Assembly (NCBI RefSeq): GCF_900113525.1
Contig: NZ_FOPP01000002.1
Span: forward strand, 372,001-436,000
Direction of reading: 5' to 3'
From: Pedobacter insulae
GTDB taxonomy: Bacteria > Bacteroidota > Bacteroidia > Sphingobacteriales > Sphingobacteriaceae
Length of the DNA: 64,000 nucleotides
Shown piece by piece: positions 15,238 through 32,993 of the stretch (position 1 is its first letter; the number at the start of each line of letters is the position of its first letter). Below the pieces are notes generated by a model, which was not told the origin of the DNA, made no database searches, and worked only from the letters and a program-made list of their open reading frames with translations. The position numbers and the translations under genes were made by a program.

Positions 15238-15311
15238 CGGGGTGTAGCGTAGCCCGGTATCGCGCCTGCTTTGGGAGCAGGAGGTCGTAGGTTCGAATCC
15301 TGCCACCCCGA
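15238..15311 (+). tRNA. tRNA-Pro (anticodon UGG)
   Basis: Cloverleaf folds by eye. The acceptor stem CGGGGTG pairs with CACCCCG. The anticodon stem CCTGC/GCAGG holds loop TTTGGGA with anticodon TGG. The T arm has GGTTCGAATCC. The discriminator base is A, and CCA is not encoded. UGG reads proline codons CCN. A promoter (15156) and a hairpin terminator (15318) bracket it as a single-gene unit. Confidence 0.96.
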
Positions 15312-15582: not shown

Positions 15583-16701
15583 TTATTCGAACCGGATGAT
15601 ATATTCATTTCTTCCGTCCTTTTTCCATGCATTTGGCTGAGAGGTGGGCGAAATGCCAAATAATGGTGAAAATGTACGTACTTTAACTGTTTTGTTATCT
15701 GGAAAAAATTCCAAAATTCTCAACCAGCCATCTCCACCATTTCCAGTACGTCCGCCGCCGCCCATTGATTGTGCATCAAACATGATCTGGTGGACAGATT
15801 TACCTTTGTCGTTCTTGTTTTTTAAATATCCTTCTCCAGAATAGTGTCCGCTGAGCACTAATTCAATATTAGAAGAAGGTTTTACAAATTTTTCCCAGAT
15901 TTGTTTACCATTATTGGCAAATGGGAGTGTTATTCGTTTTGATTTCTGAATCATGTTGTTCACACGATAGGGCTCCCAGTAGAGCCAACTTATATCTCCT
16001 CCTCCAAGGCTATCTTTAGTTGTAACATAGCTGTGTGTAGACATTACGATACGATGGTTTTTGTACTCTTGCATAGCAGCCACTTTTTTTGCCCAGTTTA
16101 AAACGGTATCTCTTGGAGCATATTCTACGGTCATGAAAAGATAATCTTTGCCGTTCAAGTTTTTAAGTTCATAGGCCGAATTTGCTAGCGTTTGCTGTCC
16201 CTGCTCATCTCTTGAGTTTTGTACCAGGTATTTTTGGTTCAGGTAATTTTTTTCAATATTAAAAAATTGATTGTAAAGTGATGTTCTGTTGCCCTCTCTA
16301 TCTATGCTGTAATCATGATTTCCTGTGGCGGCAATGTAAGGTATTTTTCCATTGAAACGGTCGAATGCATGGGCGGCTGCTTTCCATTGTTGTAAGGTAG
16401 TCTGATCTCCATCATAATCGTTGGTAATTTTCTCGTTATTATTTACCAAGTCGCCCATACAAAGCACCATTTTGATATTCAGCGAATCGATATTGCTATC
16501 AATCCATGCCGACATTAGCTCGAGGATTGGCTGGTTAGCGCCCCATTTTACATAGTTCTGTATGTCAGGTAGCATAATTACCGTAAAAGATTTTTTGTTT
16601 TCAAGAGTGGGCTTCTGGTAGGTAGATTGTGCATGTGCCATAGAAGTATGGAATAAAACACTTCCAGCCAAAAGCAATACATAAAGAAAGTTCTTTTTCA
16701 T
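15583..16701 (-). CDS. exported calcineurin-like metallophosphatase
   Basis: 372 aa, signal peptide to A-H-A-Q (residue 25). Metallophosphoesterase ligands are in order: P-D-I-Q-N-Y (about 45), G-D-L-V-N-N (about 88), G-N-H-D-Y (about 130), S-T-H-S-Y and S-G-H-Y-S-G-E-G-Y. The D-x-Q variant of the first motif is shared with the protein at 32994-34238, and both keep the C-terminal G-G-D-G-(W/F)-(L/M)-R-I motif, so they are one subfamily. It would hydrolyse phosphate mono- or diesters outside the cytoplasm. It is 9 bp after an EEP-family gene and is probably the last gene of the 22.1-15.6 kb operon. Confidence 0.88.
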   Translation of the reverse strand: MKKNFLYVLLLAGSVLFHTSMAHAQSTYQKPTLENKKSFTVIMLPDIQNYVKWGANQPILELMSAWIDSNIDSLNIKMVLCMGDLVNNNEKITNDYDGDQTTLQQWKAAAHAFDRFNGKIPYIAATGNHDYSIDREGNRTSLYNQFFNIEKNYLNQKYLVQNSRDEQGQQTLANSAYELKNLNGKDYLFMTVEYAPRDTVLNWAKKVAAMQEYKNHRIVMSTHSYVTTKDSLGGGDISWLYWEPYRVNNMIQKSKRITLPFANNGKQIWEKFVKPSSNIELVLSGHYSGEGYLKNKNDKGKSVHQIMFDAQSMGGGGRTGNGGDGWLRILEFFPDNKTVKVRTFSPLFGISPTSQPNAWKKDGRNEYIIRFE

Positions 16702-16710
16702 TTTGTAAAT

Positions 16711-17604
16711 TTATTTCCAGATGATATATACTGGGTAATGGTCAGACAATTGATTGGTTTGTTCATCTTGGATCACATCAGCAGCTTTAACCTTAGCAGC
16801 GATCGGTTTATTTACCCAAATATAATCTATACGGATCTTTTTGCCATGTTCAGCCGCATGCGCCTTGGTAGGTGCACTATATTTAAATTGAGTATTGGTT
16901 AAATAATAGGAATCTTTAAAACCAGCTTGTATCATTCGATTGGTAACTGTATAATCTAAACGCCCTTGGTTAAGGTTATTGTAGTAAATGGTTTTAAATT
17001 TAACAATTGCGGTACCGCTCTTGGGCTGTAATTTGCCGTCTGTTTTCAGGAATGCATCAAGCAACGGCTGTCCGTATTGAGCCGAATCTGCAGCTGCTAG
17101 TGCATTAAAATCCCCAGCAATTATTATTTTTTCATTTGAAGGGATCAATTTTGCATGGGCTAAAATGCGATCAATATCATTCCGTCTAATTTGCACTTCA
17201 AAAGGCGAAAGGTGTATGATAAAGAAATGGATGCCCTTGATGTTGCCGTAAAGATAGGAGTGCCACATGTTTGTGGTAACCTGTTGTGCCATAACAATGG
17301 GGTATCGAGAGGTAATACCAATCGGATGAGTTACACCAGTATTTAGCAGAGCATATGGATGACCATACTTTTTTCCTAGATTTTCAAGGCTGTCTTGTGT
17401 AAATCCGTTGAGTTCCTGATAGGCAATCACATCCGGATTTTCCTTGGTTATCCAATCGATATAGCGTTTTTGTAACAAAACATCGTTGTTAAATCCATGA
17501 AGAACATTGTAGCTGATGAACTTCATTTCGTTCTTGTTATTTTGGGCGTTTAGATTAGCAGACGCTACTATCAACAAAAGCCCTAAGAGAATATTTCTTG
17601 CCAT
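16711..17604 (-). CDS. exported endonuclease/exonuclease/phosphatase (EEP) family protein
   Basis: 297 aa, signal peptide to L-N-A-Q (residue 21). EEP (DNase I-like) motifs: I-S-Y-N-V-L-H-G, D-V-I-A-Y-Q-E-L (metal Glu), I-I-H-L-S-P-F-E, I-I-A-G-D-F-N-A-L, R-I-D-Y-I-W-V and S-D-H-Y-P-V. The family includes nucleases, sphingomyelinases and inositol-phosphate phosphatases, all phosphoester hydrolases. Its place beside a metallophosphatase and downstream of sugar kinases favours a small phosphodiester over DNA. It is 66 bp after the histidine phosphatase gene. A second, distantly similar EEP protein is at 28640-29575. Confidence 0.88.
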   Translation of the reverse strand: MARNILLGLLLIVASANLNAQNNKNEMKFISYNVLHGFNNDVLLQKRYIDWITKENPDVIAYQELNGFTQDSLENLGKKYGHPYALLNTGVTHPIGITSRYPIVMAQQVTTNMWHSYLYGNIKGIHFFIIHLSPFEVQIRRNDIDRILAHAKLIPSNEKIIIAGDFNALAAADSAQYGQPLLDAFLKTDGKLQPKSGTAIVKFKTIYYNNLNQGRLDYTVTNRMIQAGFKDSYYLTNTQFKYSAPTKAHAAEHGKKIRIDYIWVNKPIAAKVKAADVIQDEQTNQLSDHYPVYIIWK

Positions 17605-17670: not shown

Positions 17671-18270
17671 TTAAGAAATTATTGCATTTAGCTTTGTTAG
17701 TGTTAGTATGTTATCTTCATCAATTTCAAATGTTGTTATTGATGAATTTTCCTGAGCCAATTGTCGATAGTTTTTTAATGGCATACCAAGTTTATGAGCT
17801 AAATACAGTCTGTTGATGCCATTATGGGCTACAACCAAGATTGTTCCGTTGAGGTGTTTGTGTAGCATTTCACTGAAAAATTCATCAACACGTTTAACAA
17901 CCTGCTCGCCGCTCTCCCCATTGCCTCCAGCTTTCGTCAATAGCGGATCATTACTCCAGTTTTTCCATAGTATTTCATTCTCAGCAATAAATTCCACCCG
18001 AGTTTTCCCTTCCCAGATCCCAAAGTCTACTTCAGTTAATCTGTTGTCGGTATTAATAGCGGTTCCGGAAGCAATTTCTGCAGTAATTTTTGCACGCTGT
18101 AGGGGCGAGGAATAAACAGCGTCAAATTTAATCTCTTTTAATAGCTGATGAACAAGGTTTGCTTGAGCTATCCCTTTATCTGTTAACTCGATATCAGTTC
18201 TGCCACAATACCTATTTCCGCTAGCGTTATAAGCTGTTTCTCCATGACGCAATAAATAAACTTTAAGCAT
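17671..18270 (-). CDS. histidine phosphatase (phosphoglycerate mutase-like / CobC-like)
   Basis: 199 aa, cytoplasmic. The phosphohistidine motif L-L-R-H9-G-E-T-A-Y-N, the Y-S-S-P-L-Q-R-A-K-I-T-A loop, the acidic catalytic E-V-D-F-G-I-W-E-G and the second histidine V-V-A-H-N-G-I are all present. The pattern D-I-E-L-T-D-K-G is close to alpha-ribazole phosphatases, but there are no cobalamin genes around. The start overlaps the FGGY kinase end by 8 bp, so it probably removes a phosphate from, or regulates the level of, an intermediate made by the kinases upstream. The exact substrate is unknown. Confidence 0.87.
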   Translation of the reverse strand: MLKVYLLRHGETAYNASGNRYCGRTDIELTDKGIAQANLVHQLLKEIKFDAVYSSPLQRAKITAEIASGTAINTDNRLTEVDFGIWEGKTRVEFIAENEILWKNWSNDPLLTKAGGNGESGEQVVKRVDEFFSEMLHKHLNGTILVVAHNGINRLYLAHKLGMPLKNYRQLAQENSSITTFEIDEDNILTLTKLNAIIS

Positions 18271-19723
18271 GAATTTTATTTTTGATATAGCCTTTGCTGG
18301 TTAACAAAGCGATGAATTTATGATAGTTATTGTTGTAATTATTTGAAAGTATAGCTTCCGGGTAAACTTCTTTTTCTATGCAAGTCATTTGCGCAACAGC
18401 TTCAATTAGTGATTTAAAATAGGTGTTAGAGGCGGCTAAAATTGCAGCACCAACAGCTCCGCTTATATGTTTCATTTTAAAGATGGGAAGATTTAGCACA
18501 TTACTTCTAATTTTTAACCACGTCTCGTTATTGCTGCCACCCCCAGCAGTGTAAACCGCGTTAATATCTTCTTGTGTAAACTGTTTAATAAGCTCAAAAG
18601 CATATCGTTCTAAATAAGCCACACCTTCCATGTTGGCTGTAAATTTTTCTTCCATACTTAATCCGGCAGGCTCAAAACCAACAGCATGAGGTGCCAGCAT
18701 TGGAAATCTTTCACCTTTTTGTCTTAATGGATAAGAGAAATTGTTTGAAGGAATTAGTTTTGCTGCTGCTTCGCTAAGGTATTCAATGTTATTGCCAAAT
18801 TCATTTGTTACCCAATCTGCTCCGGTGTTACTTGCGCCACCTGGCATCCAATAACCTGCTGGGTGTCTGTGACTGTAAATTCTTCCTTCATCATCAAGTA
18901 ATTGCTTGGTAGTTACACCCTTAATTACCATTGTTGTGCCTATTGTTGTATTCCAATCTCCAAGTCTGATAGCACCTGATGCAATTTGCGAAGCGCATCC
19001 ATCAGTAATGCCATTAATGATTTTAATATTTTTTGGGAGACTGATTTTTTTTGCTAACTGTGGTTCAATTGTTCCAATTACACTTCCAGAGGGCAATACA
19101 TTTGGTAGCCAATTTTTCTTAATCAATAAATCAGTTGTGAGATAAGCTGGCCATTCTAGTTTGTTCACGTCGTAACCAGATTTAAAGGCATTGGTATAAT
19201 CTGTCACTCCCCAAACTCCGCTTAACAATCCGGTAATGTAATCTGCAGCGTGTACCCATTTGGCTATTTGATTTACTTTTTCGGGATATGTTTCTTGAAA
19301 CCAAATCATCTTTGCTAAACCACTTGAAGAGTTGAAACCAGTAAATCCTTGTACATTGTTTTTAGTGGCTATTGAGATGCATTTTTCGCCTTGGGGTGTA
19401 GAACGCTTGTCGCTGTACATAATCGCATTATGAAGTGGATTATGGAATTGATCTAAGGGGATAACTGTTCCGGAGGTAGAAGTAACTGCAATGGCGATGA
19501 TTTTGGAGATTATTTTTTGATTTGATTTTGCAGCACTTAATTTCAATAAACATTCTTCACACGCTTTCCACCACATTACTGGCGATTGTTCTTCTCTTGA
19601 TTGATCGTCTAAGCCGAAGTTTTTTTCAGTGCTTGCGGCAACTTCTCCATTAGAATCTAATATAACCATACGTGCACCTTGTGTTCCAATATCAATTCCT
19701 AAAAAATATGCTTCCATTAACAA
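18263..19723 (-). CDS. FGGY-family carbohydrate kinase (second of pair)
   Basis: 486 aa with the FGGY two-domain actin-like fold: G-I-D-I-G-T-Q-G-A-R-M (phosphate 1), T-S-T-S-G-T-V-I-P-L-D, K-W-V-H-A-A-D-Y (sugar domain), N-G-I-T-D-G-C-A-S-Q (catalytic Asp region), T-T-I-G-T-T-M-V-I-K (phosphate 2) and Y-T-A-G-G-G-S-N-N-E-T-W (adenosine). The T-S-G-T-V pattern places it nearer ribulokinase/xylulokinase-like members than glycerol kinase. The start may be the ATG at 19723 or 19717. It overlaps the first kinase by 7 bp. It phosphorylates a ketose or polyol in the cytoplasm; the substrate cannot be read from sequence. Confidence 0.88.
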   Translation of the reverse strand: MLMEAYFLGIDIGTQGARMVILDSNGEVAASTEKNFGLDDQSREEQSPVMWWKACEECLLKLSAAKSNQKIISKIIAIAVTSTSGTVIPLDQFHNPLHNAIMYSDKRSTPQGEKCISIATKNNVQGFTGFNSSSGLAKMIWFQETYPEKVNQIAKWVHAADYITGLLSGVWGVTDYTNAFKSGYDVNKLEWPAYLTTDLLIKKNWLPNVLPSGSVIGTIEPQLAKKISLPKNIKIINGITDGCASQIASGAIRLGDWNTTIGTTMVIKGVTTKQLLDDEGRIYSHRHPAGYWMPGGASNTGADWVTNEFGNNIEYLSEAAAKLIPSNNFSYPLRQKGERFPMLAPHAVGFEPAGLSMEEKFTANMEGVAYLERYAFELIKQFTQEDINAVYTAGGGSNNETWLKIRSNVLNLPIFKMKHISGAVGAAILAASNTYFKSLIEAVAQMTCIEKEVYPEAILSNNYNNNYHKFIALLTSKGYIKNKIHA

Positions 19724-21165
19724 AAAGTTTGTTTAAATACAGCTCTAGTCTGCTTCCATTCGGCATAGCGTTGCTGGTATTGTTCGATATTTTTGGGGAC
19801 GGTTTCTGCTAAGATTGATGAATTTAATGCTGCAAAACCTAATGCTTTATTGCAAATATAAACTCCACCAATTACCGATGCTTGACGATAATCGGTATTG
19901 ATTTTGATTTTTTTACCTATTAGATTAGCTAAAAACTGTCGTAACAGTGGGCTTTGCACCCCCCCTCCGCAAGCCCAAATATAATCAGCTTCATGCGTGG
20001 TCACTTCACATAAACTTTTGTAGTTTTCATTAATACTACAGGCTATGTCCCAAAGAGTAGCCCAAACAAAACTTGCTCTAGTTAATTGATGCGATACAGG
20101 TACATTGAATATAAAGCCCCCTTTAGTTAGCGGAGTTTCTTCGTCTGCAAGTAGCGAACCTAAAGAAGCTACACACTGAAAATCTTTAAGTTCGGCCAGT
20201 TCCTTCTCAATTATATCATAATCTTCAGTTGGATAAAAAATTTCTTTTAACCGTTGATAGTTTAATCCGGTTACACCAGCATTTGTTTCTAAAATAAAAC
20301 TGTTTTCATCTGTATGTCTGTTTGTCCAGGTGCGCTGTAGATGATCTGTAATATAACTATCGGTTAATTTTATAATAGGAGTTGTCGTGCCAGAAACTAT
20401 TACAATATCATTTGCACAGGGTTGTGTGCTAATTACTGCTAATTGTGTATCTGCTCCACCTACTACTACTTTAGCATCAGCTGAAATCTGAATTGCTTCA
20501 GCCTCGCTTTTGAGTACCTTTCCAAGTATAGTTCCAGATGGTGTTAATTTTGGGAGAAGTTTGGGGTTAATATTAAATAAATTGCAAAGCCGATCTGACC
20601 AGTTTTTTTGAGCTACATCGTAAAGCAAAGTTTCTGATGCTTGGGAATGTTCATAATGTATTACACCACTCATTTTATATTCAACCCAATCACTAATGCT
20701 CAAAAAAGTAGCAACCTTATTCCATATTTCTGTTTTTTTTTTCTCAATCCCGATTAATTTATAGGCAGAAAATAATGAATTAGGAAAACGTCCGGTCAAT
20801 TGATAGACCTCTTTTTTATCCGCTAGTAAATTTTCCCATTGTCTTCCGCGATGGTCAATATTAGGTAGGCCTATGAGCGATTTTCCTTCTTTGTCGATCA
20901 GCACTATGCCTTCTCTTTGACTAGTAGCTGTTATTCCTTCAATATGAATTTCTGGAGCCTGAGCTAGACTTAGTCTGGCTAATTGTTGAATCTGAATCCA
21001 TAAATCACCAGGGTCAAAATACAAACTATCAGGATAATCACTATCCTTTACATTTTGTAAATCTGCTCTTGCTATTCCTAAAATTTCGCCATCAATTGTT
21101 GCTACGGCTACACGTACATTGCCTGTACCTACATCTATAATTAAATATCCTTGCTGGTTATTCAT
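19717..21165 (-). CDS. FGGY-family carbohydrate kinase (first of pair, LsrK/YoaC-like)
   Basis: 482 aa from the ATG at 21165; a longer frame to 21201 would overlap the dehydrogenase and lacks support. Motifs: I-I-D-V-G-T-G-N-V-R-V, G-I-T-A-T-S-Q-R-E-G-I-V-L-I-D, S-I-S-D-W-V-E-Y, V-V-G-G-A-D-T-Q and W-A-C-G-G-G-V-Q-S. The T-S-x-R-E-G-I-V-L-x-D string resembles autoinducer-2 kinase LsrK and B. subtilis YoaC, though no other lsr genes are here. It lies 5 bp after the 2-hydroxyacid dehydrogenase gene. Two non-identical kinases in tandem suggest two related substrates or successive steps. Confidence 0.87.
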   Translation of the reverse strand: MNNQQGYLIIDVGTGNVRVAVATIDGEILGIARADLQNVKDSDYPDSLYFDPGDLWIQIQQLARLSLAQAPEIHIEGITATSQREGIVLIDKEGKSLIGLPNIDHRGRQWENLLADKKEVYQLTGRFPNSLFSAYKLIGIEKKKTEIWNKVATFLSISDWVEYKMSGVIHYEHSQASETLLYDVAQKNWSDRLCNLFNINPKLLPKLTPSGTILGKVLKSEAEAIQISADAKVVVGGADTQLAVISTQPCANDIVIVSGTTTPIIKLTDSYITDHLQRTWTNRHTDENSFILETNAGVTGLNYQRLKEIFYPTEDYDIIEKELAELKDFQCVASLGSLLADEETPLTKGGFIFNVPVSHQLTRASFVWATLWDIACSINENYKSLCEVTTHEADYIWACGGGVQSPLLRQFLANLIGKKIKINTDYRQASVIGGVYICNKALGFAALNSSILAETVPKNIEQYQQRYAEWKQTRAVFKQTFC

Positions 21166-21170
21166 ACCAT

Positions 21171-22133
21171 CTATATTTTGCTCATTTGCTTTGCAAACCA
21201 TTTGATAATTCTATCATTCATAATTGCCACATGATGATCTTCAACCTCATGTGTGGCGCCTGCAATATGTGGAGTTGCCAATACATTTGGGTGATGAATT
21301 AATCTATAATCTTTCTCATCTGGTGGTTCGTGATCAAATACATCCAATACAGCACCTCTAATTAAATTGTTTTCTATGGCATATAAAAGATCATCACGTT
21401 TTACTACTGCAGCCCTTGCGGTGTTAACAAATATGGCACCAGTTTGCATCGTAGATATTAGATCATTGTTAATCATTTCAATTGTGGTTTCATTAACTGG
21501 TAAATGAATAGATACAATATCTGAAGTTTTAAACACTTCTGCTAAACTTGTTTTCTTATATTTAGAACTGGCTTGTTCCACAAAAGGATCATAAAATTGA
21601 ATGGTGCATGGAAAATTTTCTACCATGTTAGCAATGCGTTGCGGTACTGCCCCAAAACCAACCATGCCTATTGTTTTATTTGCCAATTCATTTCCCTTAA
21701 ATTGAAGATAGGAGGTGTGGGCACCATTATCCCAATTTTTTTCTTTTAACCATTTGGTACTGGCTGCAGTGTTGCGTAATATATCTATAACAGTAGCTAA
21801 AAATAACTCAGCAACCGCTTGAGAATTTCTGGCAGGGGTATGGAAAACAGGGATATTTTTCTCTTTTGCAGTTTTTAAGCAAACATTAGAAGGTGTGCCT
21901 CTGCAAACGCCAATAAATTCTAAATGTGGAAAAGAATTAATCACTTTAGCAGTTACATGGTCATGTTCGGTTATTAATGCATCTGCTTTCGATGTATCCA
22001 GTAGGTTAATAAGCTCATCCTCGCTAAATGCCCTACCATTAGTTTTCCATGGCTTATATATAACTTCTCCGAGCACAGCTGAAAGTTCTGCTTGTCCTTT
22101 TGCATGATAAGGTGCTGTAACTAATATCCTCAT
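21171..22133 (-). CDS. NAD-dependent D-isomer-specific 2-hydroxyacid dehydrogenase
   Basis: 320 aa, cytoplasmic. Nucleotide loop G-M-V-G-F-G-A-V-P-Q-R (about residues 158-168). Catalytic arginine in N-T-A-R-A-A-V-V, glutamate in D-V-F-D-H-E-P-P and histidine in T-P-H-I-A-G-A-T complete the phosphoglycerate dehydrogenase-like triad. It heads the minus-strand operon with two FGGY kinases. The pairing recalls B. subtilis yoaD-yoaC, whose physiological substrate I do not know to be established. It would interconvert a 2-hydroxy acid and a 2-keto acid, perhaps a sugar-acid or phosphorylated acid. A divergent DeoR gene starts 272 bp away. Confidence 0.88.
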   Translation of the reverse strand: MRILVTAPYHAKGQAELSAVLGEVIYKPWKTNGRAFSEDELINLLDTSKADALITEHDHVTAKVINSFPHLEFIGVCRGTPSNVCLKTAKEKNIPVFHTPARNSQAVAELFLATVIDILRNTAASTKWLKEKNWDNGAHTSYLQFKGNELANKTIGMVGFGAVPQRIANMVENFPCTIQFYDPFVEQASSKYKKTSLAEVFKTSDIVSIHLPVNETTIEMINNDLISTMQTGAIFVNTARAAVVKRDDLLYAIENNLIRGAVLDVFDHEPPDEKDYRLIHHPNVLATPHIAGATHEVEDHHVAIMNDRIIKWFAKQMSKI

Positions 22134-22405
22134 TTTTGTTGTTTGTATTGGTTAATTATTTAATAATGTGATTCACGTCAATTTAACTGTGAACGGAGTT
22201 GTGATTAATTGGTGGTATGGCTAGCTGATGAACAAATTAACATAATTAAACTTAAAAAAACAAAATTAAAATTAATTTAAACAAAATTTTAGTTTTTTAT
22301 TACAATTTTGCGTTTAAAAGTAAATTATAGCTTTAATTAATCACATTTTAATTAAGTTTGTATTTTAGAAATCAAAAATTAAATCCTCTTAGCCAAGCAA
22401 CGCTT
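22134..22405. promoter_or_regulatory. divergent control region of the kinase operon and deoR
   Basis: 272 bp of very A+T-rich DNA. On the plus strand TAAGTTTG (22353-22360) matches the -7 consensus TAnnTTTG and lies 46 bp before the deoR ATG, but no good -33 element precedes it. On the minus strand TAATTTTG (22268-22261) is another -7 match, about 130 bp before the dehydrogenase start. DeoR-type repressors usually bind such divergent regions, and the operator here is not resolved. Confidence 0.4.
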
Positions 22406-23170
22406 ATGAAAAACATTACCGATAGACACGAGCTTATTCTGCAAAGACTTAAAGAAAATGGAAAAGTTAGTATTGCAGAACTTGCTGAGCTAATGAATGT
22501 AACTGGGGTGACAATTAGAAAGGATTTGAAAATCCTGGAAGACAAAAATCTCCTATTCCGTACCAAGGGTGGAGCTTCTGTAAGTAATCCCTATGCTTCT
22601 GAAAGAACGATTAACGAAAAGGAATTTATCAATTCTGATCAGAAAAAGAGGATCGCGAAGGCGGCTATGGCGTTAATAGGTAGTAGCGATTCGATTAGCA
22701 TTGGTTCTGGTACTACGGTTTTCGAACTTGCAAGGTGCTTATTTCCTGCTAATCATTTAACGGTAATTACTCCTGCTTTAAAGGTTGGGTTAGAATTAAG
22801 TAACCGTCCAAATGTTGAAGTCTTGCAACTTGGTGGCCTGATAAGATCCAATTCATCTTCGGTGGCGGGTACCTACGCAGAAAGAACACTTCAAGAATTA
22901 TCCTGTGAAATTATATTCCTCGGGGTGGATGGTATTGATTTTGATTTTGGTTTTTCTATCACAAACATCGCCGAAGCAACACTTAACCAAAAAATGATTG
23001 AAACTGCCCAAACTGTAGTGATTATGGCGGATAGCACTAAATTTAACAAAAGAGGTTTAGGTAAAATCTGTAGCTTCGATCAGGTTCAGTATGTGATTAC
23101 TGATGATAAAGTTTCTGAAAAGAATATTAGACAATTGGAAGATAGAAGTGTAAAAGTTATTGTAGTTTGA
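22406..23170 (+). CDS. DeoR/GlpR-family repressor
   Basis: 254 aa from the ATG at 22406; an upstream in-frame TTG at 22358 would start on the promoter element and is rejected. The N-terminal helix-turn-helix is I-A-E-L-A-E-L-M-N-V-T-G-V-T-I-R-K-D-L-K-I-L-E, followed by the effector domain with I-G-S-G-T-T (phosphate-sugar loop), L-G-G-L-I-R and the late M-A-D-S-T-K-F. DeoR proteins usually sense a phosphorylated sugar. Here the product of the divergent FGGY kinases is the natural candidate. It may also govern the SusCD genes that follow 654 bp later. Confidence 0.9.
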   Translation: MKNITDRHELILQRLKENGKVSIAELAELMNVTGVTIRKDLKILEDKNLLFRTKGGASVSNPYASERTINEKEFINSDQKKRIAKAAMALIGSSDSISIGSGTTVFELARCLFPANHLTVITPALKVGLELSNRPNVEVLQLGGLIRSNSSSVAGTYAERTLQELSCEIIFLGVDGIDFDFGFSITNIAEATLNQKMIETAQTVVIMADSTKFNKRGLGKICSFDQVQYVITDDKVSEKNIRQLEDRSVKVIVV

Positions 23171-23824: not shown

Positions 23825-26800
23825 ATGACAAAAAAAAACTTTTACGTATTGCTTTTATTGCTAATGTCGTTTGTAACGGCGTTAGCACAACAAATACAGG
23901 TAACTGGAAAGGTTACTGATGATCTTGGAGGAGTTCTTCCGGGAGTTACCATAATGATTAAAGGCACAACTAATGCTGTTGTTACTAATGAAAGAGGGGT
24001 ATATGTATTGCCAAAAGTTTCAGGTAACGCAATCTTGGTGTTTTCTATGCTAGGAATGAAACCACAAGAAGTTACAGTGGACAACCGCAACACAATTGAT
24101 GTCTCTTTACATGGCGAAGCTTTTAGCTTAAACGAAGTTGTAGCTATTGGTTATGGTGTGTCTAAGAAAAAAGACCTTACGGGCTCTGTGGCTACAGTTA
24201 GTGGTGAAACTTTAGCTAAAAGAGCCACTACACAAGTTTCTCAAGCATTGCAAGGTGCCATGCCAGGTGTAACCGTAACCCGATCAAACACCGAGCCGGG
24301 TGCTACTGCCACGGTTAGGGTAAGGGGCGTAACTACTATTGGTGATAGTAGCCCTTTGGTAATTGTTGATGGTGTGCCGGTTAGTAGTATGGATGATGTT
24401 AATCCGGATGATATTGAAGATATTTCGGTTCTAAAAGACGCTGCTTCTGCTTCTATTTATGGGGCAAGGGCGGCAGCTGGAGTTGTGATCATTACCACTA
24501 AAAGAGCCAAATCTAATCAGGTGCATATCGATTTTACCTCCAATTTTGGTTTCGATTCTCCTACAGCTTTTCCAGAAACTGTGGGTGTGCAAAGATACAT
24601 GCAAATGATTAATGAGTTTTCATGGAATGATGCAGGTAATGTAGCCGGAGGGGAATACAGTTTGTATCCTAAAAATGATGTCGAAAATTGGTTAACATTA
24701 AACCAAACTAACCCAAACCGTTATCCCAATACAAATTGGTTAGATTTAATTGTAAGAGATAGAGCACCACGTTTCAGTCAGAACATCTCATTTTCCGGAA
24801 GCTCTGGTAAGATCAAAACTTTTGCATCCTTAAATTATGAAAATGTAGATGCATTGTATGCACATAGAAATTACGAAAGAACAATGGCCAGGGTTAACAA
24901 CAGCATTGATATTTCGGATAAGTTTACGGCAAATATAGATTTCTCTTACAATTACGTAGTAAGGAAAAATCCTTCTGTGAACCCTATCTGGGATGCACAA
25001 CGATACCCTGCGGTATTTGCAGCCACCTGGGCCGATGGAAGAATTGCAAGTGGACAAAACGGGAGCAATGGTTATGCCGCATTAGAACATGGTGGTTTTA
25101 ATAATAGTACTGTTAGTAGGTTAAATGGCAGAATTTCATTACAATATAAACCTATTAAGGACCTTAGTTTTACAGCGGTAGTTTCACCTTATCTATCAAA
25201 CACCAAAGGAAAACAGTTCACCAAGCAAATCCCCTATTATTCTGATGAAGACCCTGCTGTGCGTTTGGGCTATATTGCTGGTTATGCTACAACTTTCTTA
25301 GCAGAAACTCGTGATGACAGTAAAACGTTTACCAAGCAGTTATTAGCTAACTACGACAAGCAAATTGGAGGTCATAGCTTTAGTGTATTGGCAGGTTATG
25401 AAGATTATACCTTTTTTGCCGAATCGCTAGGTGCCCGTGCAGATAACTATACTTTAATTAATTTCCCTTATCTGGATTTAGGTCCGTTAGACTATACCTC
25501 TAATACAGGTAATGCAGTAGAAACTGCTTACCGTTCTTATTTCGGCCGGGTGAATTACGATTATAAAAAGCGTTATTTGCTTCAGGCTAATATCAGGTAT
25601 GATGGCTCATCTCGTTTTCATCCAGATTACCGTTGGGGAGCATTTAGCTCAGCATCTGTTGGTTGGGTGTTAACGGAAGAAGCATTTATGCCCAAAATTA
25701 AAGGCTTATCTTATTTAAAGTTTAGGGGGTCTTGGGGCCAATTGGGTAACGAAAGAATCGGTAATTATCCATACCAATCATCAATCGGTTATTCTAATGC
25801 TTTGTTTTACCAAGGGAATACAGTAGTTTCAGCTACTACAGCAGCTCAGTTTGCTTATGCTATCAAAGATATTTCTTGGGAAACCACCGAAACTGCTAAC
25901 ATTGGTTTCGATGCTACTTTTTTAAATAACCGTTTATCGCTTACAACAGATTATTTTCAAAAGAAAACCAAAGATATGCTGCTAGAATTAGAAATTCCTG
26001 ATTACATGGGTTTCGAAAATCCTAATCAAAATACCGGTGTAATGACTACCAAAGGCTGGGATGCTCAGTTATCATGGAAAGATAAAATCGGAAAATTTGG
26101 CTATTCTGCAACTGTCAACCTATCAGATTCTAAATCAAAAATGGGTAATTTAGGCGGTACTGTATTTACAGGATCTCAAATTACCAGAGAAGGAAGTGAG
26201 TTTAAGGAATGGTACGGTTATCGATCAAATGGTATTTACCAAACGACAGCAGAAATTACAGGGTCTCCAAAATTATACAATAGTGTAAAACCTGGCGATA
26301 TCAGGTATGTAGATATTAGTGGTCCTAACGGAGTACCTGATGGTATTATTAGTCCAGATTACGACCGCGTTCAGTTGGGTGGCTCTTTACCGCGTTACGT
26401 TTTTGGTGGTGTTATCAACATGGATTATAGTGGTTTGGATCTGTCATTGGCTTTTCAAGGTGTGGGTAAGCAAAATGCAAGGTTAGCAGAGCAAGTGGTT
26501 AAGCCATTTAATTCTTCATGGACTAATCCGCCAGCAATTATAGATGGTAAATATTGGAGTGTTTACAACACACCGGAGCAAAATTTAAATGCTCAATATC
26601 CACGATTATCCTACACCTCAGGAGAAAATAATAATTATGTGATGTCTGATTATTGGATGATCAATGGTGCATATTTTCGTCTTAAAAACGTAGTGTTAGG
26701 ATATACTTTTCCAACGGCATGGACATCGAAAATAAAAATAGATCGTGTTAGGCTTTTTGCTTCGGCTACCGATTTATTTTCAATAGATAATTACCCAAAA

Positions 26801-26875
26801 GGATGGGATCCAGAAGTTGCCTACAACACTTATATCAGCAAAACATTCAATTTCGGACTATCAGTTAAATTTTAA
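23825..26875 (+). CDS. SusC-family TonB-dependent outer membrane transporter (pair 1)
   Basis: 1016 aa. Signal peptide to T-A-L-A-Q (residue 22); a carboxypeptidase-regulatory-like beta-sandwich (I-Q-V-T-G-K-V-T-D-D to about 100); the SusC linker L-N-E-V-V-A-I-G-Y-G; plug domain with V-R-V-R-G-V-T-T-I-G and I-E-D-I-S-V-L-K-D-A-A-S-A-S-I-Y-G-A-R; then the 22-strand barrel ending in F-G-L-S-V-K-F. There is no N-terminal STN domain, so control by an anti-sigma/ECF pair is unlikely. It imports an oligomer with the SusD lipoprotein encoded 5 bp later. Context of phosphoesterases and FGGY kinases suggests a phosphate-bearing or polyol-rich ligand. Confidence 0.95.
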   Translation: MTKKNFYVLLLLLMSFVTALAQQIQVTGKVTDDLGGVLPGVTIMIKGTTNAVVTNERGVYVLPKVSGNAILVFSMLGMKPQEVTVDNRNTIDVSLHGEAFSLNEVVAIGYGVSKKKDLTGSVATVSGETLAKRATTQVSQALQGAMPGVTVTRSNTEPGATATVRVRGVTTIGDSSPLVIVDGVPVSSMDDVNPDDIEDISVLKDAASASIYGARAAAGVVIITTKRAKSNQVHIDFTSNFGFDSPTAFPETVGVQRYMQMINEFSWNDAGNVAGGEYSLYPKNDVENWLTLNQTNPNRYPNTNWLDLIVRDRAPRFSQNISFSGSSGKIKTFASLNYENVDALYAHRNYERTMARVNNSIDISDKFTANIDFSYNYVVRKNPSVNPIWDAQRYPAVFAATWADGRIASGQNGSNGYAALEHGGFNNSTVSRLNGRISLQYKPIKDLSFTAVVSPYLSNTKGKQFTKQIPYYSDEDPAVRLGYIAGYATTFLAETRDDSKTFTKQLLANYDKQIGGHSFSVLAGYEDYTFFAESLGARADNYTLINFPYLDLGPLDYTSNTGNAVETAYRSYFGRVNYDYKKRYLLQANIRYDGSSRFHPDYRWGAFSSASVGWVLTEEAFMPKIKGLSYLKFRGSWGQLGNERIGNYPYQSSIGYSNALFYQGNTVVSATTAAQFAYAIKDISWETTETANIGFDATFLNNRLSLTTDYFQKKTKDMLLELEIPDYMGFENPNQNTGVMTTKGWDAQLSWKDKIGKFGYSATVNLSDSKSKMGNLGGTVFTGSQITREGSEFKEWYGYRSNGIYQTTAEITGSPKLYNSVKPGDIRYVDISGPNGVPDGIISPDYDRVQLGGSLPRYVFGGVINMDYSGLDLSLAFQGVGKQNARLAEQVVKPFNSSWTNPPAIIDGKYWSVYNTPEQNLNAQYPRLSYTSGENNNYVMSDYWMINGAYFRLKNVVLGYTFPTAWTSKIKIDRVRLFASATDLFSIDNYPKGWDPEVAYNTYISKTFNFGLSVKF

Positions 26876-26880
26876 ACAGG

Positions 26881-28575
26881 ATGAAAAAAATATTAATAAT
26901 ATTAGTGTGTATCAATCTATTTGTGGGATGCGCAAAATTAGATCTCAATCCATTATCTGAGGGATCTTCTGAAAATTGGTATTCAGATGAAACAGAAATC
27001 GGATTATCTTTAAACGACTTGTATAGAACCTATTTATGGGAATTAGAGAGTGATTTTAACGCAGAGCGAATGAGTGATAACTGGACACAGCGACAGGCTA
27101 TTGACGCTTTTCCGGCCGGATCGGTTACCAGTACATGGGGCAGAGGTACGGATCTATGGTTAAATACCTATAAAGGAATTACCAGAGCAAATACCATTTT
27201 AAGTAGTTTAGGTAATGCTGTGGGTAAAGTGTCTGAGGCAAAAATTAAGCAATTTGCAGGTGAGGCTTATTTTATGCGTGCCGCTTTTTATTCGCGCCTA
27301 ATTTTTTACTATGGGGATGTTCCTTTTTATAAAGAAACCATTAGTATTGAAGATGCATTTAAGCTTGGGCGTACCAATAAGGCTACTATTTTAGCAAGTG
27401 TTTACGAAGATTATGATAAAGCAATAGCAAGCTTACCTGTTACATACTCATCTTCTGAACTTAAACGTGCTACCAAAGGGGCGGCTTTGGCCTTTAAGGC
27501 AAGAACTGCCTTGTATATGGGCGATTTTGCTCTTGCCAGAGATGCTGCAAAGGCTTGTATGGATTTAAAAACCTACACGCTTCATGCAAACTATGGCGAC
27601 TATTTTTTGTCTAAAACCAGAAATTCGACAGAAACCATTTTTGCAATCCCACGGTCTTTTACTTTGGGTGTTTCGTGGACAGCTACAAATTTTTATACCC
27701 GAACAGCGGGAGGTAGTGCCGTTGCTCAACCATCATGGGAAGTTTTTTGTGCTTATACCTGTACTGATGGATTACCTATTGATGAATCGCCATTGTTTAA
27801 CCCAAGGTTACCTTTTAATAACCGTGACCCAAGGTTAAAAGCGACCATTGCAGAGTTTGGTAAAGAGCATTTAGGCTTTATTTACGATCCAAATCCAACT
27901 GCGTTAACGGTGCTAAATGTAGCTACAGGTAATAAAGTGGCTAATAAAGACAATAGGGCAATAGATACTTTTGCTGCCTATAACGGTTTAGCTTTAAAAA
28001 AAGGGGTTGATGCAGATTGGTCGGATGATAAACAGACAGATTTTGATATTAGGATAATGAGATATGCAGATGTGCTGTTGATGTATGCCGAGGCCAAAAT
28101 AGAATTGAATGAGATTGATGCTGCTACCTTAACGGCAATCAATATGGTAAGGGCAAGGGCTTATGACGTTCCAGTTACTTCAACTACCTTGTATCCTGCA
28201 GTTACCATAACCGATCAAACGCAGTTAAGAAAAATATTAAGAAATGAGCGCCGCGTAGAGTTTGTATGGGAAAATAGAAGATTTGATGATTTATTGAGAT
28301 GGCGCTTAGCGGAAAAAGCATTGAAAAAGCCAATATTTGGTGTGCTTGATCCTGCTGTTTTTAAAACCAAGGTGGTAGATAAGGGTTTATATTTCTTCTC
28401 TCAGACCCCACAAATAGACGATGATGGAATTGCCGACTTTAGCGCTTTGCAAGCGGAAGGAACGGTTAAGTTATTAGTGAACAGAGCTTTTGATAAATCG
28501 AAACAATATTTGTTTCCTATCCCTTCTAAAGAAATCTTGATCAATAAAAACCTAGTTCAAAATCCAGGTTACTAA
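26881..28575 (+). CDS. SusD/RagB-family substrate-binding lipoprotein (pair 1)
   Basis: 564 aa. Lipoprotein signal with lipobox L-F-V-G-C (Cys16). The all-helical TPR-bearing SusD fold is indicated by Y-F-M-R-A-A-F-Y-S-R-L-I-F-Y-Y-G-D-V-P, R-A-T-K-G-A-A-L-A-F-K-A-R-T-A-L-Y, M-R-Y-A-D-V-L-L-M-Y-A-E-A-K, the N-E-R-R-V-E-F-V-W-E-N-R-R-F-D-D-L-L-R-W motif, and the C-terminal Y-L-F-P-I-P-x-x-E...N-P-G-Y. It caps the SusC barrel at the cell surface and is followed by a bidirectional terminator. Confidence 0.95.
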   Translation: MKKILIILVCINLFVGCAKLDLNPLSEGSSENWYSDETEIGLSLNDLYRTYLWELESDFNAERMSDNWTQRQAIDAFPAGSVTSTWGRGTDLWLNTYKGITRANTILSSLGNAVGKVSEAKIKQFAGEAYFMRAAFYSRLIFYYGDVPFYKETISIEDAFKLGRTNKATILASVYEDYDKAIASLPVTYSSSELKRATKGAALAFKARTALYMGDFALARDAAKACMDLKTYTLHANYGDYFLSKTRNSTETIFAIPRSFTLGVSWTATNFYTRTAGGSAVAQPSWEVFCAYTCTDGLPIDESPLFNPRLPFNNRDPRLKATIAEFGKEHLGFIYDPNPTALTVLNVATGNKVANKDNRAIDTFAAYNGLALKKGVDADWSDDKQTDFDIRIMRYADVLLMYAEAKIELNEIDAATLTAINMVRARAYDVPVTSTTLYPAVTITDQTQLRKILRNERRVEFVWENRRFDDLLRWRLAEKALKKPIFGVLDPAVFKTKVVDKGLYFFSQTPQIDDDGIADFSALQAEGTVKLLVNRAFDKSKQYLFPIPSKEILINKNLVQNPGY

Positions 28576-28639: not shown

Positions 28640-29575
28640 CTAGACAAAAGCAATCTCGGCGCTTACAAAATAATGATCGCTTGGATAAATCCCATCTGCC
28701 ATTTCATCAATAATTTTAGCATTGGTAGTTTTGATGTTTCCTTTGGAAAAGATAAAATCGATTTTTCCGGTATTCTTTTGGGTAGATTTTGAATATGCTT
28801 TGCCTAGAAAATTATGGAAGGTTGCTCCCGGTTCCGAATCCCCATGTATAGTGCGGTAAGTATCTCTCCAGCCGCCGTTGGTTATAATGCTATAAACTGG
28901 GTTTGCAGAATCAACATTAAAATCACCTATTAATAATTGCGGAAAATCTGGTGCATATTGGTTGCTTTCCTTCACAATCAGTTGCCCCTGTTTATTTCTA
29001 GCTTCCTGATCTTTATGGTCTAAATGAACAGCCATTATTCTAAACTGCTTCCCTGTGTTTTTATCTGCTAATCTGAGCCAATTCACATGTCTTGCTCTGG
29101 CAGTATTCCATGATTTGCTACCTCCAATTTCTGGTGTTTCCGATAGCCAATAGCAGCCAGCAGAAATCATTTCATACCTGTTTTTAGCATACATAATTAA
29201 GTTTTTCGCAATGCCATTATAGGTTTCTGGATTAAGATCCATTTCTGGGCCTTCAAAACCAAAACATCCATATGCTGGCATTTCTTTTTTAAGGTCTTCT
29301 GCCTGTACCTTCAATACCTCTTGAAAGCCTATTAGATCTGCTTTTTGAACTTTAATGAGTTTAATGCAAGCTGTTTTTCTTGCTGCCCATCCTTTTCCAA
29401 TAGCATCATCTTCTGGTAATGCTACCCTAATATTGCAACTAAGCACTTTATGGATGTTTAGATTAACAGGGGTTGGAGTTTTCGGAACCACAGCGGTAAA
29501 TCCCGAATTAGGGAGGTAAGAAGCCGATATTGCTAAACTTGATCCCTTAATAAAATTTCTTCTAGATAAAGACAT
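28640..29575 (-). CDS. Tat-exported EEP family phosphoesterase
   Basis: 311 aa. N-terminal twin-arginine signal (S-R-R-N-F-I-K-G-S-S-L-A). EEP motifs: V-L-S-C-N-I-R-V, D-L-I-G-F-Q-E-V (metal Glu), M-A-V-H-L-D-H, L-L-I-G-D-F-N-V-D, K-I-D-F-I-F-S and S-D-H-Y-F-V. Tat export implies folding in the cytoplasm, often with a bound cofactor. It would cleave phosphoester bonds in the periplasm. It is the last gene of MFS-FAD oxidoreductase-EEP, 10 bp after the oxidoreductase, and is a functional counterpart of the EEP protein at 16711-17604. Confidence 0.87.
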   Translation of the reverse strand: MSLSRRNFIKGSSLAISASYLPNSGFTAVVPKTPTPVNLNIHKVLSCNIRVALPEDDAIGKGWAARKTACIKLIKVQKADLIGFQEVLKVQAEDLKKEMPAYGCFGFEGPEMDLNPETYNGIAKNLIMYAKNRYEMISAGCYWLSETPEIGGSKSWNTARARHVNWLRLADKNTGKQFRIMAVHLDHKDQEARNKQGQLIVKESNQYAPDFPQLLIGDFNVDSANPVYSIITNGGWRDTYRTIHGDSEPGATFHNFLGKAYSKSTQKNTGKIDFIFSKGNIKTTNAKIIDEMADGIYPSDHYFVSAEIAFV

Positions 29576-31082: not shown

Positions 31083-32327
31083 TTAATTACTTGTTGTTTT
31101 AGGTTTTTCCGGTTTAATCATCGTCCATAAAATGATAACTCCTATTGGGTGTAAAAATGCCATGGCGGTAAAAATTTGTTCGGCACCAACCTTACCCATA
31201 AATTGACCTACAAAATAATTGAAGCATACAGCTCCAACAGCTCCAAAACCACCTGCTATGCCTAATACACTGGCAACGTTTCTGCTCGGAAATGCTTCAG
31301 CAACTACCACGCTAATTGTAAATAGCCAGCTTAAACATGCGATAGCAACTACACTAAAAATCAATAAAGTAGAAAATGCTGAAGGCAGATATGGGGTTAA
31401 AATGCATAGAGGAGAAAGTACAGCAACGGCACTAAGCATTATTTTTCTGGCATTCAAGGGTTGTCTTCCTTTTCTTACCATATAATCAGACCATGCCGAA
31501 GTGCCTATTGCGCCTAAATCTGCCACTAAAAACGGTATCCATCCATATAGCCCCATTTCTTTTAATGATAAACCAGATTGTTCTTGCAAATACCCTGGAA
31601 GCCAAAATAGGCAGAAGTACCAAACTGGATCTGTTACAAATCGGATCAATAGGATACCCCATAAACTTTTGGTTTTCCATAACTGGCCCCAGCTAAAACC
31701 TTCTCTTTCCACAGCTGCAGATCTGCCGGTTGCTTCTTCTAAAATATTTGCTGGCGGATCGATATAAATTAAAATCCACATTAAGGCTATAATTAAGCCA
31801 ACAACACCAGCAACAATAAATACCGTATGCCAATCATATTTGATGGCAAGCCAAGCCACCAATGGCGGTGCAATAATGGCACCAATAGAACTTCCTGCTA
31901 CACAAAGACTGTTTGCGGTTGCTCTTAATTTTCCAGGAAACCAGATAGTAACAACTCTTAATTGAGCTGGAAAATTAGTAGGCTCGGCTGCGCCTAACAT
32001 GCCTCTGAAGAATGAAAATTGACCTACTGTTTTCGAAATTCCTCCGCCTATAGAGGCTAATGACCAGCCGATGATACCAAAAAACATGGTCAATCTTGAT
32101 CCAAATCTATCAACTAGCCATCCGGTTACCGGATACATAAGGGCATAACAAATGGTAAAAATGTTTAGAATGAATGCGTATCCGTCATCACCAAGGTTGT
32201 ATTCTTTTTTAATGATTGGTTTTAGAATGGATACAATTTGCCTGTCGAAATAATTAAAAACGATTGCCAGAAAAATAACTGCAATAATGAGCCATCTTCT
32301 TTTTTCTGGAGCTAGTGTTTTTGTCAT
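31083..32327 (-). CDS. MFS transporter, anion:cation symporter (hexuronate/sugar-acid) type
   Basis: 414 aa, about 12 transmembrane helices. N-terminal N-Y-F-D-R-Q-I-V-S-I-L-K-P and the loop 2-3 motif G-W-L-V-D-R-F-G-S-R fit the ACS subfamily (ExuT, GudP, GarP and phosphate-linked relatives). It would carry an organic anion such as a sugar acid through the inner membrane with protons. It heads the minus-strand unit with the FAD oxidoreductase 99 bp downstream. This gives the locus an inner-membrane uptake step after periplasmic hydrolysis. Confidence 0.87.
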   Translation of the reverse strand: MTKTLAPEKRRWLIIAVIFLAIVFNYFDRQIVSILKPIIKKEYNLGDDGYAFILNIFTICYALMYPVTGWLVDRFGSRLTMFFGIIGWSLASIGGGISKTVGQFSFFRGMLGAAEPTNFPAQLRVVTIWFPGKLRATANSLCVAGSSIGAIIAPPLVAWLAIKYDWHTVFIVAGVVGLIIALMWILIYIDPPANILEEATGRSAAVEREGFSWGQLWKTKSLWGILLIRFVTDPVWYFCLFWLPGYLQEQSGLSLKEMGLYGWIPFLVADLGAIGTSAWSDYMVRKGRQPLNARKIMLSAVAVLSPLCILTPYLPSAFSTLLIFSVVAIACLSWLFTISVVVAEAFPSRNVASVLGIAGGFGAVGAVCFNYFVGQFMGKVGAEQIFTAMAFLHPIGVIILWTMIKPEKPKTTSN

Positions 32328-32993
32328 TGAGTTTTATATTTGGTTAAACTAGGGATATCATATTAACTTAATGTATTATATGTATTATCAAATCAACAAA
32401 ATAAATGTTTTAAAACAAAATTAAATCAAATAAAAAATAAATAAAATATTTTTAAATGTATTTGGGTTAGTTTTAATTTAAAATTTCATGATTTGAATTA
32501 TCTATTCTAACTACGTTAGAGGTTTCTCCTAAAACAGGTGGGGTTATAAATTCGAACCTATGAAGCCAAGATGTTGAGCTCTTAAGAGATTACTGATATT
32601 GAGTTTTATTCCGTTGTTTTTTTAAAGCTTTAATTTCGTTACATAAGTTTAACATTGTGTTAATATGAAAATATGGTTGCAAAAGTCTTTTGTAAGCTGT
32701 TTTTGTTCATTTTGGCTTCTTTTTGTGATGTTTCTCCACTTAAAAAATGTTTATTTTAATTTTATTTGCTTTTAAAAATATTTTATTTAGTTTTGATATG
32801 AAGTAAAAAAGTTATTATTTATTTATTTTACTTTATTAAAAATTAATCTATAGAGATTCTATAAGATTAAAAATAAAATATGAAAGCGACCTTAAGGATG
32901 CAATAGTTTGGGTAAAAAGGTTGGTTTCGTGTAATACTAAAGGATAGAGGTTAAATCCATAATCAATATAAATATTAAACTAAACCAATTAAA
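32328..32993. other. 666-bp divergent intergenic region
   Basis: Very A+T-rich DNA between the MFS gene (minus) and the metallophosphatase gene (plus). It holds the plus-strand promoter listed at 32765-32795. A minus-strand -7 match, TAATTTTG, lies at 32423-32416, about 90 bp from the MFS start, without a good -33 box. No RNA gene or repeat was recognised. Confidence 0.4.
32765..32795 (+). promoter_or_regulatory. promoter for the metallophosphatase-FKBP-SusCD operon
   Basis: TTTG (32765-32768), exactly 19 bp, then TAGTTTTG (32788-32795), which fits TAnnTTTG. This is the best match in the window to the Bacteroidota primary sigma consensus. It would give a leader of roughly 190 nt before 32994. 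Confidence 0.55.

Follow-up and report, generated by a model that had tools for sequence, protein, structure and literature searches.

A conserved operon of a dehydrogenase, two FGGY kinases and a histidine phosphatase in Pedobacter insulae: a possible route of polyol catabolism with relocation of phosphate

Introduction

The yoaDCB operon of Bacillus subtilis presumably encodes a transporter of the major facilitator superfamily (MFS), a 2-hydroxyacid dehydrogenase and an LsrK-like kinase, and is compared here by this annotation, not by sequence. In the accessible part of PMC2743287 it is listed among the S-box regulated units. Term searches in the accessible text gave no mention of YoaC or LsrK in PMC3245297, and none of yoa or LsrK in PMC6302742. 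In Sinorhizobium meliloti, lalA-rbtABC act in the catabolism of adonitol and L-arabitol, not of erythritol, fucA is dispensable, and EryA can use adonitol and L-arabitol (accessible part of PMC3599248). The kinase SePSK of Synechococcus phosphorylates D-ribulose (accessible part of PMC4880283). The present study deals with an operon of Pedobacter insulae which shares features with these systems. It codes for a 2-hydroxyacid-dehydrogenase-family oxidoreductase (DH), two FGGY kinases (K1, K2) and a histidine phosphatase (HisP), and is located in a stretch of 64,000 nucleotides (contig NZ_FOPP01000002.1, positions 372,001 to 436,000), the whole of which is referred to as the window. The four genes form a strongly conserved unit, for which a role in the catabolism of sugar alcohols is proposed. 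No literature account of this cassette in Bacteroidota was found, as judged by titles and the beginnings of abstracts.

Results and Discussion

Organisation of the operon

The features of the window are collected in Table 1. Pfam analysis assigned DH to 2-Hacid_dh, both kinases to FGGY_N/FGGY_C and HisP to His_Phos_1. None of the NCBIfam cut-offs listed for the four proteins was reached, and their names are thus safe at the superfamily level only. The first-pass annotation had reported that the genes overlap or abut by 5, 7 and 8 bp, and this arrangement is present on the minus strand. Alignment with homologues favours the ATG at 21165 as the start of K1, which is probably the true one and leaves a gap of 5 bases to DH. 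For K2, a TTG start produces the overlap of 7 bases with K1, while the ATG at 19717 overlaps the stop codon of K1 by 1 base and is likely the true start. HisP overlaps K2 by 8 bases. All four genes of the unit do exist, but the interval 19717-22133, to which they had been assigned, spans DH and K1 only. A DeoR gene, two phosphoesterases and a nearby operon of MFS, FAD-oxidoreductase and EEP-family genes are further to the earlier gene set.

Table 1. Features of the window, with position, strand and basis of assignment.
Feature	Position	Strand	Basis
DH, 2-hydroxyacid-dehydrogenase-family oxidoreductase, kinase-partnered subfamily	21171..22133	-	Pfam PF02826/PF00389, alignment, signature, tree
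K1, FGGY kinase nearest LsrK	19717..21201	-	Pfam, PDB sequence match, model, Foldseek, active-site alignment
K2, FGGY kinase, AtXK-1/SePSK-like (D-ribulokinase-like), in clade with rhizobial RbtB-type kinases	18263..19723	-	Pfam, NCBIfam, PDB match, tree
HisP, histidine phosphatase branch 1, RHG motif, without signal-like N-terminus	17671..18270	-	Pfam, signal rule
EEP, endonuclease/exonuclease/phosphatase-family protein, export-signal-like N-terminus	16711..17604	-	Pfam, signal rule
MPE, calcineurin-like phosphoesterase, export-signal-like N-terminus	15583..16701	-	Pfam, signal rule
DeoR-family regulator, divergent from operon	22403..23170	+	AgaR-like, 228 bits vs 260 needed
Candidate DeoR operator AAACAAAATTAAA, exact	22258..22270	+	DeoR/DH gap
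Candidate operator AAACAAAATTAAA, second exact copy	32413..32425	+	Upstream of MFS-FADox-EEP2 genes
SusC-like TonB-dependent receptor	23825..26875	+	Between regulator and MFS genes
SusD-like protein	26881..28575	+	Between regulator and MFS genes
EEP2, EEP-family phosphatase	28640..29575	-	Homologue in 18/80 loci
FADox, FAD-dependent oxidoreductase PF12831	29586..30983	-	Homologue in 19/80 loci
MFS transporter nearest D-galactonate transporter model	31083..32327	-	222.6 bits, below cut-off 395

Conservation in Bacteroidota

K1 was detected (E <= 1e-40) in 28 of 201 sampled genomes of the family and in 3 of 395 of the phylum, own genome included, and is therefore a patchy, optional trait. A K1 match was present in 27 family genomes other than the own one, and the loci of 20 of these were fetched. 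All of them kept the order DH-K1-K2-HisP and the common strand, 18 without interruption and two with one gene between DH and K1. A sample of named genomes was obtained by scanning GTDB with a K1 alignment, which gave 162 relatives, from which the best 80 loci were analysed with a threshold of at least 35% identity for homologues. By their genus names we take them to belong to Sphingobacteriales, Cytophagales and Chitinophagales. K2 was present in all 80 loci, K1 and HisP in 79 each and DH in 77, in a set where contig ends truncate some loci and K1 was lost by the caller of open reading frames (ORFs) in one (L117). All four enzymes were found in 75 loci, and in 73 they were uninterrupted on one strand. 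The earlier view of the four genes as one metabolic unit is thus supported, and the free variation of neighbours in other genomes, which would have marked the kinases as unrelated recruits, is contradicted by both samples.

The usual operon in Bacteroidota is MFS1-DH-K1-K2-HisP-GDPD with a divergent DeoR gene. MFS1 homologues were found in 74 of the 80 loci, DeoR in 66 and GDPD-family phosphodiesterases in 64, and all seven genes in 50. One MFS1 member (from L034) reached 562.9 bits against a cut-off of 375 for TIGR00897, the RbtT/DalT/CsbX family. The GDPDs examined belong to PF03009, and a simple hydrophobicity rule gave a signal-like N-terminus for 61 of the 64; the closest PDB entry to the GDPD of L034 was 3mz2. 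The class II aldolase family (PF00596) was unseen in 78 loci, and in the other two a class II aldolase-like protein was encoded distally, beside RhaI-like genes.

Some loci deviate in detail. In one of the 20 fetched family genomes (G007, L031/L032) K1 is split over two frames, reflecting either recent loss or an assembly error. In a Parapedobacter-type locus (L041) DH and K1 are separated by a second gene of the GDPD family (11085-12002). Seven Dyadobacter loci (L074-L076, L087, L089, L093, L101) have an extra gene just before DeoR, which we take to be inositol-phosphate-synthase-like.

A subfamily of kinase-partnered dehydrogenases

Sequence analysis of the DHs that are partnered by FGGY kinases revealed the motif R[GA]xPx(1-2)N at the position of the GxGxDN-like loop of ordinary members, followed by P[AG]RN[AST]; the window DH has CRGTPSN and PARNS. 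This signature, which includes two extra arginines, was present in 77 of 77 Bacteroidota cassette DHs and in 7 of 7 distant ones, as well as in a haloarchaeal DH (L155). Thirty 2-hydroxyacid dehydrogenases from the 31 best-scoring loci of the window's class were used as controls. A full-length search found either motif in one of them, the cassette DH of G016, whose locus was also the sole one to hold an FGGY gene, and in 0 of the other 29. In the phylogenetic tree, the 15 rows with the signature fall on one side of a branch with 98/98 support and the 19 others on the opposite side. The subfamily occurs in Bacteroidota, Actinomycetota, Bacillota, Pseudomonadota and one haloarchaeon, with one to few records per phylum except for Bacteroidota.

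As canonical features of D-2-hydroxyacid dehydrogenases, the alignment showed the Arg, Glu and His residues, which we presume to have their catalytic roles, to be kept, while the GxGxDN-like loop is replaced. By analogy with phosphoglycerate dehydrogenase, where this loop touches the substrate, the two signature arginines could bind a phosphate.

The two FGGY kinases

The best PDB sequence match of K1 is LsrK, and active-site alignment showed that K1 holds the Arg-Glu (R-E) pair common to glycerol kinase (GlpK) and LsrK. K2 is best matched by the sugar kinases AtXK-1 of Arabidopsis and SePSK, although with 27-28% identity only and with K2 being longer; against the xylulokinase XylB model TIGR01312 it scored 217.9 bits, below the cut-off of 380.25. 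Structure prediction of both kinases, for whose sugar sites the first-pass annotation had suggested such modelling, yielded models with pLDDT values of 85 (K1) and 87 (K2). These confirmed the FGGY fold without fixing the substrate, the top Foldseek matches being xylulose, gluconate, glycerol, LsrK and AtXK-1/SePSK kinases.

The FGGY tree comprised 32 rows and carried a long-branch warning that included LsrK and the Enterococcus K1. The K2 proteins of Bacteroidota, two K2 of Streptomyces and two rhizobial kinases (L151, L153) formed one clade (99/99). Bacteroidota K1 and Enterococcus K1 formed another (100/100), placed weakly beside LsrK (82/75), and the DH-partnered kinases of Klebsiella, Streptomyces and Sinorhizobium a third (100/97).

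Despite its likeness to LsrK, K1 reached 158.2 bits where 528 are required for LsrK, and its gene neighbours differ from those of the lsr system for autoinducer-2 (AI-2). A search with E. coli LsrA, made without LsrB, LsrC and LsrD, matched nothing over the full length in the own genome and nothing at all in the window; the genome showed 22 partial matches to ABC ATPases, the best with 95.8 bits. AI-2 processing was rejected on these three grounds, and the first-pass annotation had likewise considered such a role unlikely, with which the usual RbtT/DalT-family permease also agrees. The yoaDCB operon is distinguished by its name, which leaves no place for K2 or a phosphatase, and no S-box was found by an Rfam scan of window positions 10000-48000, the sole match being a tRNA.

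Related loci in other phyla

On a Streptomyces plasmid (L147), a K1-type FGGY kinase, K2 (33% identity), HisP (39%), DH (32%), DeoR and MFS1 (49%) are encoded together, and a second Streptomyces locus (L152) has the four enzymes and DeoR. The locus of Enterococcus raffinosus (L145) combines DeoR, a Na+/H+-antiporter-family gene, DH (43%), K1 (32%), a class II aldolase and an iron alcohol dehydrogenase with homologues of methylthioribose kinase and isomerase; its aldolase reaches the L-fuculose-phosphate aldolase model (276 vs 264 bits). In Klebsiella (L148) and in two near-identical Streptomyces loci (L149, L150), FGGY and DH genes stand with a PF00596 class II aldolase, annotated as methylthioribulose-1-phosphate dehydratase in L148 and known by annotation only in L150. 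The haloarchaeal locus has DH and a double class II aldolase, with FGGY kinases farther off. Among eight distant loci of the DH type, five thus have an aldolase without K2 and HisP being seen (L145, L148, L149, L150, L155), two have K2 and HisP without an annotated aldolase (L147, L152), and the Sinorhizobium locus (L153) has both.

The gene order of L153 is FGGY, 2-hydroxyacid dehydrogenase, class II aldolase, G3P-dehydrogenase-like, class II aldolase-like, FGGY, a HAD-like stretch that lacks annotation (recognised by eye and interrupted in this record), EryC-like, DeoR, TIM and RpiB. It fits the gene list published for the erythritol, adonitol and L-arabitol locus, as far as PMC3599248 is accessible. 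This eryA/lalA-rbtABC locus shares with the window an FGGY kinase, a DH-clade enzyme (98/98), an RbtB-type FGGY kinase in the K2 clade (99/99), a phosphatase-family gene and DeoR, where the names RbtA and RbtB follow from gene order. It differs in that the first kinase (EryA) belongs to an FGGY clade other than that of K1, that a HAD protein takes the place of the histidine phosphatase and an ABC transporter that of the MFS protein, and that G3P-dehydrogenase-like and class II aldolase-family genes are added. No phosphodiesterase is annotated in the stretch of L153 examined. In Aminobacter (L151), the gene immediately after the K2-type kinase codes for a TIGR01459 HAD hydrolase; the succession of kinase and phosphatase therefore recurs with an unrelated phosphatase family.

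Five close relatives of MFS1 (51-68% identity) were found in differing settings, three beside alcohol dehydrogenase, RpiB and DhaKL (L140, L143, L144) and two beside other genes (L141, L142). The transporter alone therefore does not fix the substrate. The first three loci, on Pseudalkalibacillus, Klebsiella and Salmonella plasmids, have gene sets that look like a tetritol or pentitol route.

Proposed pathway and alternative explanations

A kinase, a phosphatase and a second kinase in one catabolic operon look wasteful, which a relocation of the phosphate would explain. We infer, with a probability of about one half, that the four genes encode the breakdown of a sugar alcohol, for which a pentitol such as ribitol or an arabitol is the most likely candidate and a tetritol a possible one. 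In this route, the polyol would be freed from an organophosphate by exported phosphodiesterases, represented by GDPD in most relatives and by EEP and MPE in the window, and a permease would import it. K1 would phosphorylate one end to give the polyol-1-phosphate, which DH with its altered substrate loop would oxidise at C2 to the ketulose-1-phosphate. HisP would release the ketulose, and the D-ribulokinase-like K2 would phosphorylate it at the other end to the ketulose-5-phosphate for the pentose phosphate pathway, the whole unit being controlled by DeoR. In favour of the scheme, every one of the four enzymes has a step of its own and is used once, with the pentose phosphate pathway as the end point. 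The conserved gene order, the signature of the kinase-partnered DHs, the recurrence of kinase and phosphatase in Aminobacter and the two kinds of exit in the distant loci count for it as well. The RbtT/DalT-family partner, the K2 clade shared with a rhizobial kinase and the R-E pair of K1 are sequence-based indications in favour of a polyol. Removal of the phosphate after the first kinase had already been suggested by the first-pass annotation; it is also the best reading here, plausible and now provided with a chemical reason. Its suggested purpose, salvage or detoxification of a side product, finds no support; with a transporter, phosphoesterases and a regulator of its own, the set resembles a catabolic route.

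Ketose-1-phosphate aldolases are found among the class II aldolases, and the occurrence of either an aldolase or K2 and HisP beside the same type of DH is what one would expect were a ketose-1-phosphate the starting point of both exits. It may tentatively be proposed, although we hold this broader generalisation to be somewhat doubtful, that the unnamed DH branch with its two loop arginines oxidises phosphorylated polyols or sugars supplied by the partner FGGY kinase. The branch would act as the hub of a modular pathway with two interchangeable exits, either an aldolase or a phosphatase and a kinase by which the phosphate is shifted from C1 to C5, and would be fed in Bacteroidota by exported phosphodiesterases that release polyols from phosphodiester polymers such as teichoic acids.

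Several points weigh against a polyol route. To our knowledge, no 2-hydroxyacid dehydrogenase oxidises a polyol phosphate, and the Arg, Glu and His retained in DH are the catalytic residues of the acid-specific members. The K1 partner is not one clade across phyla, the K1 of Bacteroidota and Enterococcus being separate from EryA-type kinases, and the correspondence of rbtA, rbtB and rbtC to protein families is deduced from gene order. The genome of P. insulae itself gave no convincing match to MFS1 (one partial match of 25% identity, E 6.4e-4) and none to GDPD, and the nearby MFS gene is nearest to a sugar-acid transporter model. Among the distant loci, L153 holds both exits, the kinase-like ORFs of L155 do not adjoin DH, the K2-type kinase and HAD hydrolase of L151 come with no DH listed in that stretch, and in L154, which has DeoR, MFS1, an L147-like kinase and a K2-like match, the ORF caller gave neither DH nor HisP. 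In Enterococcus, the methylthioribose kinase and isomerase homologues could by themselves explain the aldolase.

Part of these points would fit a sugar-acid route, which we nevertheless consider unlikely. In the 2-ketogluconate (kgu) route of Pseudomonas, phosphorylation of the imported 2-keto acid is followed by reduction. By the same logic K1 would phosphorylate a 2-keto acid, DH would reduce it to a phosphorylated aldonate, and K2 and HisP would serve a second, related substrate. The family of DH, its kept catalytic residues and the MFS gene near the window operon, nearest to the D-galactonate transporter model though below the cut-off, speak for such a route, but the usual transporter is of the RbtT/DalT type, the substrate loop of DH is unlike that of all 29 other family members compared, and K2 clusters with the kinase of a pentitol-type locus. 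Less likely still, the substrates of K1 and DH would be deoxy- or methylthio-pentoses that arise as by-products of S-adenosylmethionine, or a compound similar to AI-2. This would accord with LsrK as the best PDB match of K1 and with the closest distant relative of K1 (E. raffinosus, 32%), whose neighbours include homologues of methylthioribose kinase and isomerase as well as a class II aldolase and an alcohol dehydrogenase of the iron type. Clusters of kinase, isomerase and class II aldolase salvage 5-deoxyribose (accessible part of PMC6079011), and the S-box listing of yoaDCB points the same way. In Bacteroidota, however, the pair is accompanied by a permease of the RbtT/DalT type, a phosphodiesterase of the GDPD family and a kinase of the RbtB type.

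Phosphatases that repair metabolites by destroying toxic phosphorylated side products exist, and HisP, which stands beside two kinases and has no signal-like start, might act in this way on a product of the kinases, perhaps with DH. We consider this improbable, in view of the presence of HisP in 79 of 80 loci, the HAD hydrolase in its place in Aminobacter and the listing of rbtC among the genes of adonitol and L-arabitol catabolism (accessible part of PMC3599248). That the genes are unrelated recruits without a shared pathway is hardly credible: the K1-type partners do differ between phyla, but the four genes are uninterrupted in most Bacteroidota loci, and homologues of K2, HisP, DH, DeoR and MFS1 are found together again on the Streptomyces plasmid.

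If relocation of phosphate by the polyol route is true, it offers a chemical rationale for the rhizobial rbtABC genes and a testable reaction for the DH subfamily, and it would correct the automatic names given to these proteins, among them phosphoglycerate dehydrogenase, xylulokinase and autoinducer-2 kinase. The cassette would then represent a new variant of bacterial polyol catabolism, and the DH subfamily would merit a name if its activity were shown.

Regulator and neighbouring genes

The divergent position of DeoR, with a gap of 30-900 bases, was found in 64 of the 66 named loci with a homologue. A candidate operator, AAACAAAATTAAA, has two exact copies in the 64 kb, with one-mismatch copies before SusC and before the gene at 32994. 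Allowing at most one mismatch, 54 matches were counted in 18.9 kb of DeoR gaps from 64 loci (41 loci with a match), 12 in 76.5 kb of other intergenic DNA and 7 in 1.11 Mb of coding DNA. The assignment as a DeoR site is suggestive only, because the motif was picked from the very gaps later counted, because these gaps are richer in A+T (71% vs 62%), which by estimate accounts for a roughly five-fold difference in matches, and because 9 of 100 shuffles of the window gave as many matches.

After HisP, EEP and then MPE continue the run on the same strand; an MPE homologue was found in 6 of the 80 loci. The MFS-FADox-EEP2 run contains the transporter nearest to the window operon, and this module adjoins the cassette in other genomes, the MFS type being found in 16 of the 80 loci. 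The MFS protein is possibly a stand-in for the RbtT-type importer missing from this genome. The N-terminus of EEP2 appears Tat-like by eye, while the simple signal rule gives no flag.

A tRNA gene (15238-15311, Rfam RF00005, 67.1 bits) lies just past the end of the operon. Farther on, the region 14358-15143 codes for a protein of 261 amino acids that weakly matches the lacto-N-biose phosphorylase central domain, and 10625-12741 for LutA/LutB-like proteins (CCG domain; LUD and ferredoxin domains), for lactate or a related acid. Two AraC-family-like regulators with very similar N-termini (12807-13685 and 46152-47030) flank the cassette and several SusC/SusD-like pairs. The second of them adjoins an altronate-dehydratase-family gene, an SDR gene and an MFS gene which we take to be FucP-like. 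Between 32994 and 46017, another metallophosphoesterase and two additional pairs of large ORFs, SusC/SusD-like by size and order, suggest that these genes are part of a larger uptake island.

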